A stretch of 41,019 bases of DNA, taken from the NCBI GenBank assembly GCA_003210015.1, contig QCNX01000005.1, positions 1-41,019 of the forward strand, written 5' to 3'. The stretch comes from Pelagibacteraceae bacterium AG-426-P20 (GTDB lineage Bacteria > Pseudomonadota > Alphaproteobacteria > Pelagibacterales > Pelagibacteraceae). The notes under the pieces were generated by a model. That model was not told the DNA's origin. It searched no databases and saw only the letters and a program-made list of their open reading frames with translations. The position numbers and the translations under genes were made by a program. Numbering within the stretch: the first letter of the stretch is position 1; each line of letters opens with the position of its first letter. Below are positions 33,320 to 39,825 of this stretch, piece after piece.

Positions 33320-33847
33320 TTAATGACCCGGAAACTCAATTAAATTTTCTACTTTATACCCTTTTTTGACCAAATTGTCAGAACCATTTAAATCAAAAAG
33401 ATTTATAACAAACACAAAACAAGCAACGTTTCCACCAGAAATTTCAATTAATTTTGCAGCTGCTTCAGCAGTACCACCCGTTGCGATTAAATCATCAATG
33501 ATTAAAACTTTATCATGTTTATTAACAGAGTCTTTATGCATTTCTATTGTTGCAGTTCCATATTCTAATTCAAAATCCACAGAATGGACTTCACCAGGTA
33601 ATTTGTTTTTTTTTCTTAACATTATAAAAGGTTTTTTTAGAATATAAGAAACGGCTGATGCAAAAACAAAACCTCTTGATTCTATGGCTGCTATTTTATT
33701 AAAATTAAATCTTTTTGACCTTTCCACTATTTGATCAATAGTGTCAGCAAATGCTTTTTCATCTTTAATTAGGGTTGTAATATCTCTAAATAATATACCT
33801 TTTTTTGGATAATCAGGAATAGATCTGATAAAATCTTTTAAATTCAT
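33320..33847 (-). CDS. apt: Adenine phosphoribosyltransferase
   Basis: 175 aa; IRSIPDYPKKGILFRDITTLIKD, ESRGFVFASAVSYIL, VLIIDDLIATGGTAEAA. Confidence 0.94.
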   Translation of the reverse strand: MNLKDFIRSIPDYPKKGILFRDITTLIKDEKAFADTIDQIVERSKRFNFNKIAAIESRGFVFASAVSYILKKPFIMLRKKNKLPGEVHSVDFELEYGTATIEMHKDSVNKHDKVLIIDDLIATGGTAEAAAKLIEISGGNVACFVFVINLFDLNGSDNLVKKGYKVENLIEFPGH

Positions 33848-33888: not shown

Positions 33889-34761
33889 ATGACAATAAAT
33901 AAATTAGCTATAATAGGTGGCAGTGGTCTTTACGATGTTGAGGAGTTCAAAAATAGGGAATTATTGAATATAAATACTCCCTGGGGAAAACCTTCAGATC
34001 AAATTTTAAAAACAAAATTTAATAATAAAGAGGTTTATTTTTTGCCAAGGCATGGAAGGGGTCATTTTATTTCACCTTCAAAAATAAACTTTAGAGCAAA
34101 TATTGATGCTCTTAAACAATTAGGTGTAACTGATATTGTTTCAGTTTCAGCAGTTGGTTCTTTAAAAGAGGATTTGCCACCAGGAAAATTTGTAATTGTT
34201 GATCAATTTATAGACCGGACATTTGCCAGAGAAAAAACATTTTTTGATGGAGAGATTGTTGCTCATGTTTCCATGGCACACCCTACATCTAATGGTTTAA
34301 TGAATGCCTGTGAAGATGCAATTAAAAAAGAAAAAATAGAATATCAAAGAAATGGAACATATGTTGTGATGGAAGGTCCACAATTTTCAACACTAGCAGA
34401 GTCTAATTTATATAGATCTTGGAAAGCAGATGTAATTGGGATGACTAATATGCCAGAGGCAAAATTAGCAAGAGAAGCAGAAATAAGATACGCATCTGTC
34501 TCAATGGTAACAGATTATGATTGCTGGCATCCAGATCATGAAAATGTTGATGTTCAGCAAGTGATAAAAGTTTTATTGGGTAATGCGGCTAAAGCAAAAA
34601 ATATGATTAAAAATTTAATAGAAAATTTTGAAAATCACATTGACCCCAAAGATCCAACAAATAATTGTTTAGATGTTGCAATAATAACTGCTCCGGAAAA
34701 AAGAACAAAAAAAACAATAGAAAAATTAAAAACTGTTGCTGGAAGGGTTCTTAGTAAATAA
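33889..34761 (+). CDS. mtnP: S-methyl-5'-thioadenosine phosphorylase
   Basis: 290 aa; IIGGSGLYDV, RHGRGHFISPSKINFRANIDALKQLGV, EGPQFSTLAESNLYRSWKADVIGMTNMPEAKLAREAE, DYDCWH. Confidence 0.95.
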   Translation: MTINKLAIIGGSGLYDVEEFKNRELLNINTPWGKPSDQILKTKFNNKEVYFLPRHGRGHFISPSKINFRANIDALKQLGVTDIVSVSAVGSLKEDLPPGKFVIVDQFIDRTFAREKTFFDGEIVAHVSMAHPTSNGLMNACEDAIKKEKIEYQRNGTYVVMEGPQFSTLAESNLYRSWKADVIGMTNMPEAKLAREAEIRYASVSMVTDYDCWHPDHENVDVQQVIKVLLGNAAKAKNMIKNLIENFENHIDPKDPTNNCLDVAIITAPEKRTKKTIEKLKTVAGRVLSK

Positions 34762-35831
34762 TGAAAATAGAGGGAAAAGAATATCGCACTATTTGGTTTG
34801 AAAATAATATTGTTAAAATAATAGATCAGACAAAACTTCCTCATAAATTTATTATTAAAGATTTAAAAACAGTAAACGATGCAATAAATGCAATCAAAAC
34901 TATGGAAGTAAGAGGCGCTCCTCTAATAGGAGCTACAGCAGCTTACGGATTAGTTTTAGCTATAATTGAAAATAATGATCAATCATTTTTAAAAAATTCT
35001 GCAGAAAATTTAGCAAGTTCAAGACCTACGGCTATAAATTTAAAGTGGGCTGTAGATAGAATGATGAAAAAATTATCAGGTGTTAATAGTGATAAAATTT
35101 TAGAAATAGCCCTGAATGAGTCAAAAGAAATTTGTGAAGAAGATATAAAATTTTGTGAAAATATTGGATTAAATGGCTTAAAAATAATTGAAGAAATTTA
35201 TAGTAAAAAAAAAGATACTGTTAATATTTTAACACACTGTAATGCAGGCTGGCTTGCAACCATTAATTGGGGGACTGCAACTTCCCCTATTTATCATGCA
35301 CACAAAAAAGGGATACCAGTACATGTTTGGGCTGATGAAACTAGACCAAGAAACCAAGGAGCAAACCTTACTTCTTATGAATTAAATGAAGAAGGAATTA
35401 AAAATACAATTATTGCAGATAATACAGGTGGCATTTTAATGCAAAGAGGTGATGTTGATATGTGTATTGTTGGAACTGATAGAACTTTAGCAAATGGAGA
35501 TGTTTGTAATAAAGTCGGAACTTACCTAAAAGCGTTAGCTGCTCACGATAATAATATTCCTTTTTACGTTGCTCTTCCAAGTTCAACAATAGATTGGAAT
35601 ATTAATGATCATAAAGATATTCCAATCGAAGAGAGAGACTCTGAGGAATTATCACACGTAGAAGGTTTAGATGATGCGGGAAATATAATGAAAATTCAAA
35701 TTTACCCAAAAAAAAGTACAGCAATGAATTTAGCTTTTGATGTTACACCTGCCAAATATGTTACAGGTTTGATAACTGAAAAAGGTATATGCCAAGCATC
35801 ATCTGAAGGATTAAAAAAATTATTTCGATGA
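34761..35831 (+). CDS. mtnA: S-methyl-5-thioribose-1-phosphate isomerase
   Basis: 356 aa; IKTMEVRGAPLIGATAAYGL, SRPTAINLKWAV, HCNAGWLATINWGTATSPIYHAHKKGI, DETRPRNQGANLT, GTDRTLANGDVCNKVGTY. Confidence 0.95.
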   Translation: MKIEGKEYRTIWFENNIVKIIDQTKLPHKFIIKDLKTVNDAINAIKTMEVRGAPLIGATAAYGLVLAIIENNDQSFLKNSAENLASSRPTAINLKWAVDRMMKKLSGVNSDKILEIALNESKEICEEDIKFCENIGLNGLKIIEEIYSKKKDTVNILTHCNAGWLATINWGTATSPIYHAHKKGIPVHVWADETRPRNQGANLTSYELNEEGIKNTIIADNTGGILMQRGDVDMCIVGTDRTLANGDVCNKVGTYLKALAAHDNNIPFYVALPSSTIDWNINDHKDIPIEERDSEELSHVEGLDDAGNIMKIQIYPKKSTAMNLAFDVTPAKYVTGLITEKGICQASSEGLKKLFR

Positions 35832-36484
35832 AAAATTTAGATCAAAGAAATCAAATTATTGAATATTCTTTAAAATTAAACTCTACAAACCTTTCACCTC
35901 TTAGATCAGGCAACATATCTTTGAGAGGTAAAGAAAATGACAAAGATGGATATTTAATTACCCCGTCAGGAAAAAAATACGATACATTAAAACCAGATGA
36001 CATTGTTTTTATGGGTTTAAACGAAGAAGAAGAAAAAAACGACTCAACTAACAAACCCTCATCTGAATGGAGATTTCATCGAGATATTTATTTAAAAAAA
36101 AAAGAAGCAAAAGCTATTGTTCACGCTCATTCTCCACACGCAACAGCTGTATCTTCACATGGAAAACCAGTACCACCATTTCATTATATGATTGCTCTTG
36201 CTGGGGGTGAAGACATAAAATGTGCAGAATATGCTACTTTTGGTACAGAAGATCTTTCTAATAATGTAATTAAAGCCTTAGAAAATAGAAGCGCATGCTT
36301 AATGTCTAATCACGGTCAGGTTGCTTTTGGTAAAAATTTAGAGGATGCATTTGAACTTGCACAAGAGATAGAAAATATTTGTCATCAATACACTATTGCT
36401 CTAAAGTTAGGTACTCCAAAGATTCTCTCATTTGAAGAAATGAAAAAAGTTTTGGATAAAGCTAAAGGTTATAAAAAAAGGTAA
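35828..36484 (+). CDS. Class II aldolase/adducin family, fuculose-phosphate-aldolase-like
   Basis: 218 aa; RSGNISLRG, GYLITPSGKKYDTLKPDDIV, KPSSEWRFHRDIYL, AIVHAHSPHATAVS, HYMIALAGGEDIKCAEYATFGT, CLMSNHGQVAFG. Confidence 0.88.
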   Translation: MKNLDQRNQIIEYSLKLNSTNLSPLRSGNISLRGKENDKDGYLITPSGKKYDTLKPDDIVFMGLNEEEEKNDSTNKPSSEWRFHRDIYLKKKEAKAIVHAHSPHATAVSSHGKPVPPFHYMIALAGGEDIKCAEYATFGTEDLSNNVIKALENRSACLMSNHGQVAFGKNLEDAFELAQEIENICHQYTIALKLGTPKILSFEEMKKVLDKAKGYKKR

Positions 36485-36485
36485 A

Positions 36486-37526
36486 ATGATTAAAGTTGGG
36501 GAGCATATTACTTTAGATATTATAGGTACTATAAAAGAGTACGATCCCTCAGTTTATGAGAAGGTTATTAATAAAATTGCTAAAGCTGCAGATGTAACTA
36601 TTTTAAATATTTCAAAATATAAATTTGAACCTCAAGGATTTACAATTTTGGCATTATTAGCAGAAAGCCATATAAGCTTTCATACTTTTCCAGAAAAAGG
36701 AATAATCAGTTTTGATTTTTTCACATGTGGAAAAATAAGCCCTTCTATTGCAATCGATATAATAAAAAAAGAATTTGAATATAAAAGAATTGTTAAAAAA
36801 GAATTTAATAGAGACACAAAATCTCTTTACCATGATATTTACAGCTCGCCTGGTTTACAAAAATCATATGTAGTAAATGAAGTTTTAGAAGACTTTAAAT
36901 CAAAAGTTGGTCAACACATAGAAATTTTGGAATTAGAACAGTTTGGAAAATCTTTATTTATTGATGGGGAAATACAAGTAGCAGCTTCTGATGAGCATTT
37001 ATATAGCTCAACATTTGTTGGTGCAGGTTTAAAATTAAACAAAGAAAATGAAAGAGCTGCAATAATAGGTGGAGGTGACGGCGGTGTTGCTAGAGAATGT
37101 ATTTCTAAAAATTTTAATTTTGTAGATTGGTATGAACTTGACCCTGAAGTTGTTGAAGTTTGCAATAAACACTTGGGCGATATTGGTAAAAAAGCTACTG
37201 AAAAAAACTCAGTAAAATGTGTTTGGGGTGATGCATTCGAGAGTATTAAACAAGCAAGTGACGATACATATGACCATATATTTGTAGATTTAAACGATGA
37301 TCAATTTTGTATTGATTTAGCTTCAAAAAATATGGACTCTTTAGTAAGAATTTTAAAACCTAAGGGAGTGATAACAGCCCAGGTTGGAAGTCAAGACAAA
37401 AAACCTCTTCAAGTTGAAAATTGGCTGAATGTTTTCAACCATCATTTTGGAAATACTAATTTATCAAGAGTTTATATACCAAGTTTTGACTGTTCTTGGA
37501 ATTTTTCCTCATCAATAAATCACTAA
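36486..37526 (+). CDS. Fused S-adenosylmethionine decarboxylase-family (SpeD) and spermidine synthase (SpeE) protein
   Basis: 346 aa; N-terminal LLAESHISFHTFPEKGIISFDFFTCG (S61, H66, C81), then SpeE part LFIDGEIQVAASDEHLYSS, AAIIGGGDGGVARE, WYELDPEVVEV. Confidence 0.9.
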   Translation: MIKVGEHITLDIIGTIKEYDPSVYEKVINKIAKAADVTILNISKYKFEPQGFTILALLAESHISFHTFPEKGIISFDFFTCGKISPSIAIDIIKKEFEYKRIVKKEFNRDTKSLYHDIYSSPGLQKSYVVNEVLEDFKSKVGQHIEILELEQFGKSLFIDGEIQVAASDEHLYSSTFVGAGLKLNKENERAAIIGGGDGGVARECISKNFNFVDWYELDPEVVEVCNKHLGDIGKKATEKNSVKCVWGDAFESIKQASDDTYDHIFVDLNDDQFCIDLASKNMDSLVRILKPKGVITAQVGSQDKKPLQVENWLNVFNHHFGNTNLSRVYIPSFDCSWNFSSSINH

Positions 37527-37586: not shown

Positions 37587-38414
37587 ATGAATATATTCAA
37601 AAAAACTATTTTTTCAGTTTTACTTTCTTTGTTAGTAATGGGAAATGTAAATGCTGACAAAATTAGAATTGGAACCGAAGGTGCCTATCCTCCATGGAAC
37701 TCAAAAACTGAGGCAGGTAAGTTAATAGGATTTGAAGTAGAATTAGCTTACACACTATGTAGATATATTGGACAACAATGTGTAATGGTTGAACAAGATT
37801 GGGATGGTATGATACCAGCGTTAATCATGAGAAAGTTTGATGCAATAATGGCGGGTATGTCAATTACTGCTGAAAGACAAAAAGCTATTAGCTTTTCTCA
37901 AGGTTATGCAGATGAAGTTGCTTCATTGGCAGTGATGAAAGGATCTAGCCTTGAAGGTTTAGATACACCTGCTGGAATTAATTTAACTAAACCTAACGCG
38001 GCAGCAAAAAAAGCATTAAAAACTCTTACAGCAGCCTTAGCTGGAAAAACAGTTTGTGTACAAACTGCTACCATTCATCAAAACTTTTTAGATTCTGGTG
38101 ATGTTGGAAAAGTGAATGTAAGAACTTATAAAACACAAGACGAAGTAAACTTAGACTTAGCGTCAGGAAGATGTGATGCTGCACTAGCTGCTGCTGTTGC
38201 ATTCAGTGATTATGCAGAAAAATCTGGTAAACCAGTTGTCTTAACTGGACCTACTTTTTCAGGTGGAGCATTTGGTAATGGCGTTGGAGTTGGTATTAGA
38301 AAAGATGATACTGAACTTCTAAATAAGTTTAATGCCGCAATTAACAAAGCGAGAAAGAACGGAGATATTAGTAGAATAGCTACTAAGTGGTTCGGTTTCG
38401 ACGCTTCTATGTAA
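37587..38414 (+). CDS. Polar/basic amino acid ABC transporter substrate-binding protein
   Basis: 275 aa; signal peptide, IRIGTEGAYPPWNSKTEAGKLIGFEVELAYTLC, EQDWDGMIPALIMRKFDAIMAGMSITAERQKAISFSQGYA. Confidence 0.9.
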   Translation: MNIFKKTIFSVLLSLLVMGNVNADKIRIGTEGAYPPWNSKTEAGKLIGFEVELAYTLCRYIGQQCVMVEQDWDGMIPALIMRKFDAIMAGMSITAERQKAISFSQGYADEVASLAVMKGSSLEGLDTPAGINLTKPNAAAKKALKTLTAALAGKTVCVQTATIHQNFLDSGDVGKVNVRTYKTQDEVNLDLASGRCDAALAAAVAFSDYAEKSGKPVVLTGPTFSGGAFGNGVGVGIRKDDTELLNKFNAAINKARKNGDISRIATKWFGFDASM

Positions 38415-38426
38415 TTTATTTTAGAT

Positions 38427-38453
38427 TTGGCGACTATAATGTATAGTCGCCAA
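38427..38453 (+). promoter_or_regulatory. Stem-loop between SBP and first permease, just upstream of the ATG
   Basis: Perfect 12-bp stem TTGGCGACTATA-ATG-TATAGTCGCCAA; ATG at 38459. Confidence 0.8.
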
Positions 38454-38458
38454 TCTCT

Positions 38459-39151
38459 ATGGAACTTCTAGCATTTGGTGATACTGGTTGGGGTGATGAG
38501 TTGTTTTATGCTACCCTAATGACTATAGCTGTATCTATTACAGCAATGATCATCGGTTTTAGTTTTGCAGCAATTTTTACTCCACTTAAACTATCAAAGA
38601 ATAAATTATTAAATTTAATTGCAAATTCTTACACAACAGTAATTAGAGGCGTTCCAGAATTATTAGTAATTTATCTTTTCTTTTTTGGAGGGACTGGCGC
38701 AGTAATGTTTGTTGCCTCAATATTTGGTTATAATGAATATATTGAAATAAATGCGTTCATAACTGGTGCGTTCGCAATTGGAATTATTTCAGGAGCCTAC
38801 TCAACTGAAGTCTTTAGGGGAGCAGTTATGTCAATCGACAAAGGTCAATTTGAGGCTGCTAAAGTTTTAGGATTAAGTAAATTTGTGCAATTTTATAAGA
38901 TTATTCTTCCACAAGTTTTACGACTAGCTATTCCCAATCTAAGTAATGTTTGGCAAATTACACTTAAAGACACATCTTTAATTTCCGTGACTGGTTTGGT
39001 TGAAATTATGAGACAATCTTATATTGCAGCTGGATCAACAAGAGATCCTTTATTCTTTTACTCATTCGCTGCAGTTTTGTATTTATTACTTACTTTTGTA
39101 AGCATGAAATTAATCAATAGATTAGAAGTTAAATATAGTAGGGGGTATTGA
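38459..39151 (+). CDS. Polar amino acid ABC transporter permease (HisQ-like)
   Basis: 230 aa; TTVIRGVPELLVIYLFFFGG, SGAYSTEVFRGAVMSIDKGQFEAAKVLGLSKFVQFYKIILPQVLRLAIPNLSN. Confidence 0.9.
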   Translation: MELLAFGDTGWGDELFYATLMTIAVSITAMIIGFSFAAIFTPLKLSKNKLLNLIANSYTTVIRGVPELLVIYLFFFGGTGAVMFVASIFGYNEYIEINAFITGAFAIGIISGAYSTEVFRGAVMSIDKGQFEAAKVLGLSKFVQFYKIILPQVLRLAIPNLSNVWQITLKDTSLISVTGLVEIMRQSYIAAGSTRDPLFFYSFAAVLYLLLTFVSMKLINRLEVKYSRGY

Positions 39152-39825
39152 TGGATTTTGAATTAATGATTAATAGTTTCCCTAAATTATTAAGTGCAGC
39201 AGTGATAACATTAAAACTTCTTTCTGTTTCTTTGGTAATAGGACTATTCATTGGATTATTTTTTGCAATTCTAAGATTAAATAAAAATATTTTTATCAAT
39301 AAGTTTGCTTATGGATACTCTTATATATTTAGAGGTACACCACTTTTAGTACAAATTTTTATAATTTATTTTGGATTAGGTCAGATTGAATATTTAAGAT
39401 CGACAGTTTTATGGGTAATTTTAAAAGAACCATATTGGTGTGCAATTATCGCTTTTGCTTTAAACACTGGTGCTTATACATCTGAAATTTTAAGATCAGC
39501 ATTCCAAACAATTAAACCTGGTATAATTGAGGCTGGTCAAAGCTTAGGTATATCTAGCAAGATTATTTTTTATAAAATACAAATTCCAATTGCTATTAGA
39601 CAATCCCTTCCAGCTTATGGAAATGAAATAATTCTGATGATGAAAGGCACTTCTCTAGCAAGCACGGTTACAATTATGGATTTAACTGGTGTTGCAAAAT
39701 ATATAATTTCTACAACTTTTAAACCGATAGAAGTATTCATAGTTGCTGGTGGAATTTATCTATTTATGACTTTTATTATTCACAACGTAATCAAATTTTT
39801 GGAAAAAAAATATAGTTTTAATTAA
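39148..39825 (+). CDS. Polar amino acid ABC transporter permease (HisM-like)
   Basis: 225 aa; YSYIFRGTPLLVQIFIIYFGLGQ, NTGAYTSEILRSAFQTIKPGIIEAGQSLGISSKIIFYKIQIPIAIRQSLPAYGNE; 4-bp overlap with previous gene. Confidence 0.9.
   Translation: MMDFELMINSFPKLLSAAVITLKLLSVSLVIGLFIGLFFAILRLNKNIFINKFAYGYSYIFRGTPLLVQIFIIYFGLGQIEYLRSTVLWVILKEPYWCAIIAFALNTGAYTSEILRSAFQTIKPGIIEAGQSLGISSKIIFYKIQIPIAIRQSLPAYGNEIILMMKGTSLASTVTIMDLTGVAKYIISTTFKPIEVFIVAGGIYLFMTFIIHNVIKFLEKKYSFN

Follow-up and report, generated by a model that had tools for sequence, protein, structure and literature searches.

Does the open reading frame that joins a SpeD domain to a SpeE-like domain in this 41,019-nucleotide stretch of DNA (the window) encode an S-adenosylmethionine (AdoMet) decarboxylase fused to an aminopropyltransferase, or has its SpeD half acquired another substrate? 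An earlier note described a single-polypeptide SpeD::SpeE fusion with an altered HTFPE motif and left the substrate open, since some bacterial SpeD homologues have become pyruvoyl-dependent ornithine or arginine decarboxylases. Here we report that the gene almost certainly encodes the known bifunctional polyamine enzyme of SAR11 bacteria, comprising an AdoMet decarboxylase (AdoMetDC) and an aminopropyltransferase, with 5'-methylthioadenosine (MTA) disposed of by the upstream genes of the operon and putrescine made elsewhere. Both activities have been shown in the literature for orthologues; here we describe sequence, conservation, phylogenetic placement and gene context, and we infer the cleavage and activities of the window protein and what exactly becomes of MTA. 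The fusion gene comprises the following features.

36486..37526, + strand: speD-speE fusion ORF, a 346-aa AdoMet decarboxylase-aminopropyltransferase (ORF, Pfam, NCBIfam and family matches)
36504..36812, + strand: class 1b AdoMet decarboxylase half, residues 7-109 (PF02675; alignment to 1TMI, 1TLU and 2III)
36663-36668, + strand: codons of the predicted self-cleavage site E60/S61
36840..37505, + strand: aminopropyltransferase half, residues 119-340 (PF17284 and PF01564; SpeE alignment; fold match)

The ORF begins with ATG and runs as an uninterrupted frame of 346 codons to a single stop. In Pfam searches the AdoMet_dc domain (PF02675) covers residues 7-109 with 94 bits against a cut-off of 25, and is followed in the same frame by Spermine_synt_N (PF17284) at residues 119-165, also over its cut-off, and by Spermine_synth (PF01564) at residues 170-340, with 83 bits against a cut-off of 22.9. 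The NCBIfam model of class 1b SpeD, TIGR03330, scores 96 bits against 75.65. When aligned with the T. maritima and Aquifex AdoMetDC chains, E60-S61, H66 and C81 of the fusion correspond to T. maritima S63, H68 and C83, the residues whose roles are given in PMC10407285. The profiles and the alignment thus uphold the class 1b proenzyme proposed earlier, with E60-S61, H66 and C81 in the T. maritima spacing, and the single-polypeptide fusion is equally confirmed, as both domains lie in one frame and recur together across the family.

According to the proposed mechanism, the N-terminal half would cut itself between E60 and S61, with S61 becoming the pyruvoyl cofactor, and the cleaved half would decarboxylate AdoMet. 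The C-terminal half would then move the aminopropyl group onto putrescine, releasing MTA, and further transfer may yield spermine and thermospermine, as in the tested orthologues. Those orthologues come from the strains HTCC1062 and HTCC7211, whose genomes we take to be two single-contig genomes of our search (1,308,759 and 1,456,888 bases). The window fusion shows 86% identity to its counterpart in the presumed HTCC1062 genome and 91% to that in the presumed HTCC7211 genome; HTFPE is common to all three, and the differences are limited to point substitutions.

The fusions of HTCC1062 (WP_011282223) and HTCC7211 (WP_008544956), which share with the window protein the genus and the one-polypeptide layout and, going by the presumed genomes, HTFPE and the catalytic residues, were expressed in E. 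coli (PMC11107197). Both are reported to bring spermidine back in a speD mutant of E. coli, from which it follows that their N-terminal half is a working AdoMetDC (PMC11107197). By analogy, the SpeD half in the window probably decarboxylates AdoMet, as its Pelagibacter orthologues do in E. coli (PMC11107197). Since both activities were demonstrated earlier in close relatives, the protein is to be regarded as an ordinary enzyme and not as a new decarboxylase. The enzyme is already published, and the substrate question is answered by the earlier work on close orthologues, so that the ORF is settled as the published Pelagibacter bifunctional enzyme and not as a further case of a SpeD turned ornithine or arginine decarboxylase.

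Two other readings of the SpeD half were weighed. That the fusion combines AdoMetDC with a side activity on arginine or ornithine that matters physiologically would fit the frequency of multifunctional enzymes reported for SAR11 (PMC8437039), but we consider it very improbable: no sequence feature suggests such an activity, the conserved motifs are those of an ordinary SpeD, and the genome encodes a further decarboxylase.

Even less probable is a conversion of the SpeD half into a pyruvoyl-dependent decarboxylase of ornithine (SpeDC) or arginine (SpeDA), so that the fusion makes putrescine or agmatine instead of decarboxylated AdoMet. Cases of such neofunctionalisation of SpeD are on record, some of them in pelagiphages of the same host (PMC9992855, PMC10407285), and F65, directly before H66, is common to the SpeD half and the pelagiphage arginine decarboxylase (ADC). 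The latter enzyme, of pelagiphage HTVC201P (AXH71538), is a SpeD homologue like the window half and its phage infects the same genus (PMC9992855); its measured activity is that of an arginine decarboxylase, and it is reported not to restore spermidine in a speD mutant (PMC9992855). However, it differs from the window fusion in being a stand-alone protein of 122 aa with IETS and HSWDE motifs. The SpeD half has AES in place of ETS, with E60 where the HTVC201P group has Thr, and an intact HTFPE in place of HSWDE. In pairwise comparison its identity is 21% to the HTVC201P ADC versus 35-40% to the phage SpeDs of S-PM2, P2559S and S-CREM1. PMC10407285 describes a central proline that separates AdoMetDC from SpeDA and four residues that mark SpeDC; both central prolines of the window fusion, P49 and P69, are missing in HTVC201P, and either of the two may be the published one. 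The restoration of spermidine in E. coli speD mutants by the orthologous fusions (PMC11107197) speaks directly against this reading, as does the requirement of the fusion partner for decarboxylated AdoMet. In addition, the profile search of the genome, which is 76% complete, gave the fusion as the sole AdoMet_dc gene and no second SpeD, and a separate PLP decarboxylase is encoded there.

The placement of the SpeD half points the same way. In a maximum likelihood tree of 63 SpeD sequences, two pelagiphage proteins and five other alphaproteobacterial proteins form one clade with 100/98 support, and the fusions fall outside it together with the AdoMetDCs of T. maritima, Aquifex, S-PM2, P2559S and phiYS40. 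The tree was built from 116 columns with several long branches, and the HTVC201P ADC is its only characterised non-AdoMetDC, no characterised ornithine decarboxylase or SpeDC being included; it is support, not proof, for a position apart from the pelagiphage ADC. The phylogenetic check proposed earlier thus argues against an ADC. With the in vivo AdoMetDC activity of the orthologues (PMC11107197), this separate position and the PLP decarboxylase and agmatinase found in the genome, the view that the substrate is open lacks support. Five alphaproteobacterial SpeD homologues that group with the pelagiphage ADC (L154, L156, L160, L161 and L162) have Thr at the position preceding the cleavage Ser as well as a modified HTWPE motif, and are possible SpeDC or SpeDA enzymes.

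The motif that had been singled out as altered is indeed HTFPE, at residues 66-70 of the fusion, and in other alphaproteobacterial SpeDs its third position is mostly W and in some Y. As a sign of changed function it fails, because F68 is invariant in 111 fusions and the SpeD of phage P2559S likewise reads HTFPE. According to PMC9992855, the latter is a true AdoMetDC, with which a speD mutant of E. coli regains spermidine. H66, F68, P69 and E70 are identical in all 111 homologues, so HTFPE is the rule in the SAR11 lineage, and it should not serve as a marker of a substrate shift.

Genome-wide searches with PF02784, PF01276 and PF00491 gave no match on contig C5, which carries the window; the earlier statement that the window holds no other putrescine-making gene agrees with this, and such genes sit on other contigs, as follows.

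L178:3078-6191 (contig C11 of the window's genome, G000): PLP decarboxylase, then SpeY homologue, then agmatinase

The decarboxylase is a 394-aa protein of the alanine-racemase fold, directly followed by a deoxyhypusine-synthase-like SpeY, for which the NCBIfam name is 1,9-bis(guanidino)-5-aza-nonane synthase, and by the agmatinase. A second agmatinase-family gene is located on contig C1, and no fold-I decarboxylase (OKR_DC_1) was found in the 76% complete genome. A 394-aa Pelagibacter PLP protein is reported to decarboxylate arginine, not ornithine or lysine, and the Pelagibacter ADC is described as clustered with an arginase/agmatinase homologue; in the legend to the cluster figure SpeY is named as well (PMC9992855). 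By its length, fold type and gene cluster, the C11 decarboxylase appears to belong to the type for which ADC activity was shown in Pelagibacter. Putrescine would thus come from a separate PLP arginine decarboxylase and agmatinase. The search for a speA/speC-type gene, suggested earlier as a check, turned up a separate PLP decarboxylase and agmatinase, which weakens the open-substrate reading. The earlier note named as decisive against its own proposal a clear AdoMet-only activity alongside a separate ornithine or arginine decarboxylase; this is largely what we see, as AdoMet activity goes with a separate decarboxylase in the orthologues and, judged from its gene content, in the window genome.

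The transferase half is a divergent aminopropyltransferase. Alignment with free-standing alphaproteobacterial SpeE shows that it keeps GGGDGG at residues 195-200 as well as D219, D268 and D271, and its membership among aminopropyltransferases is supported by GGGDGG, the acidic residues, and the tetramerisation and spermine-synthase domains over cut-off. It lacks the C-terminal YY...H.A.FALP segment and the YHE motif of free-standing SpeE, and it scores 98 bits with the NCBIfam equivalog model of spermidine synthase, TIGR00417, against a cut-off of 250. The missing segment and the low speE score are also seen in the fusions of the presumed HTCC1062 and HTCC7211 genomes. The transferase halves of HTCC1062 and HTCC7211 are reported to make spermidine, spermine and thermospermine, the latter two seen in a speE mutant (PMC11107197). 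Because the orthologues make all three products, a plain spermidine synthase label is unsuitable. With reference to Green et al. 2011, PMC8437039 describes the SAR11 SpeE as a broad-range fusion; it also proposes that the enzyme can work in reverse.

An AlphaFold model of the fusion was of moderate confidence (mean pLDDT 73.5). Its best fold matches in the PDB were human spermine synthase (3c6k and 3c6m), over the whole length of the fusion with a large rmsd, followed by spermidine synthases over about 240 columns; given the large rmsd of the former, the fold match is no firm guide to the domain arrangement. The alignment of 3c6k along the whole predicted model is a likeness of layout and fold, kinship aside. 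An AdoMetDC-like N-terminus joined to an aminopropyltransferase, as in the window fusion, is also described for the AdoMetDC-SpmSyn fusions of a delta-proteobacterium and a candidate-phylum bacterium and for animal spermine synthase (PMC12803844). The N-terminal domain of the animal enzyme is reported to have lost AdoMetDC function (PMC12803844), whereas in the Pelagibacter half the catalytic residues are all retained.

Of the 118 genomes of the family, 95 gave a match to the fusion, nearly always full-length in one open frame, a recurrence that leads us to reject a frameshift, an assembly artefact or chance as its origin. Every one of the 80 loci retained from the genome collection is from Pelagibacteraceae (Ca. 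Pelagibacter, SAR11); the window's own genome comprises 909,565 bases in 59 contigs. No variation was seen at S61, H66, F68, P69, E70 or C81 across 111 homologues, and P49 is likewise invariant. At least about half of the listed genomes without a fusion match belong to genus g5, and the family genome search gave no fusion match in the listed g5 genomes, some of which are more than 90% complete.

MTA is the by-product of aminopropyl transfer, and the genes directly upstream of the fusion are suited to its disposal.

33320..33847, - strand: apt, adenine phosphoribosyltransferase, divergent (TIGR01090, 205 bits versus cut-off 186)
33889..34761, + strand: 5'-methylthioadenosine phosphorylase, 290 aa (TIGR01694, 313 bits; NF006492, 450 bits; both over cut-off)
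34761..35831, + strand: mtnA, 5-methylthioribose-1-phosphate isomerase, 356 aa (TIGR00512, 425 bits versus cut-off 279)
35828..36484, + strand: class II aldolase, 218 aa, probable Ald2-type 5-methylthioribulose-1-phosphate aldolase (PF00596)

The aldolase gene overlaps mtnA by 4 bases and ends 1 base before speDE. Its product is fuculose-phosphate-aldolase-like and also matches 6btd; its probable assignment to the Ald2 type is based on position and family. Taken together, the MTA phosphorylase, mtnA and aldolase genes correspond to the DHAP shunt in its MtnP form, as described in PMC10986504. The phosphorylase, MtnA and the aldolase, together with the divergent apt, would dispose of MTA, apt reusing the adenine freed from it. 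Among loci of sufficient length, most have the order apt-mtap-mtnA-aldolase-speDE; two single-contig genomes (L172 and L173) lack the shunt genes at the speDE locus, one of them the presumed HTCC1062 genome, which in this respect differs from the window. It is about equally balanced, in our judgement, whether most sampled SAR11 loci unite the fused enzyme and an MTA phosphorylase-MtnA-Ald2 DHAP shunt in one operon, coupling aminopropyl transfer to salvage as adenine, DHAP and a methylthio-aldehyde. Our literature search on SAR11 found no paper describing the fused enzyme as coupled to a DHAP-type MTA shunt. The MTA-disposal operon represents a testable piece of the sulfur and purine economy of SAR11. 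On the other side of speDE, at 37587-39825 of the window, a lysine/arginine/ornithine-type solute-binding protein and two permeases are encoded, and they come after speDE in most of the loci that reach this far.
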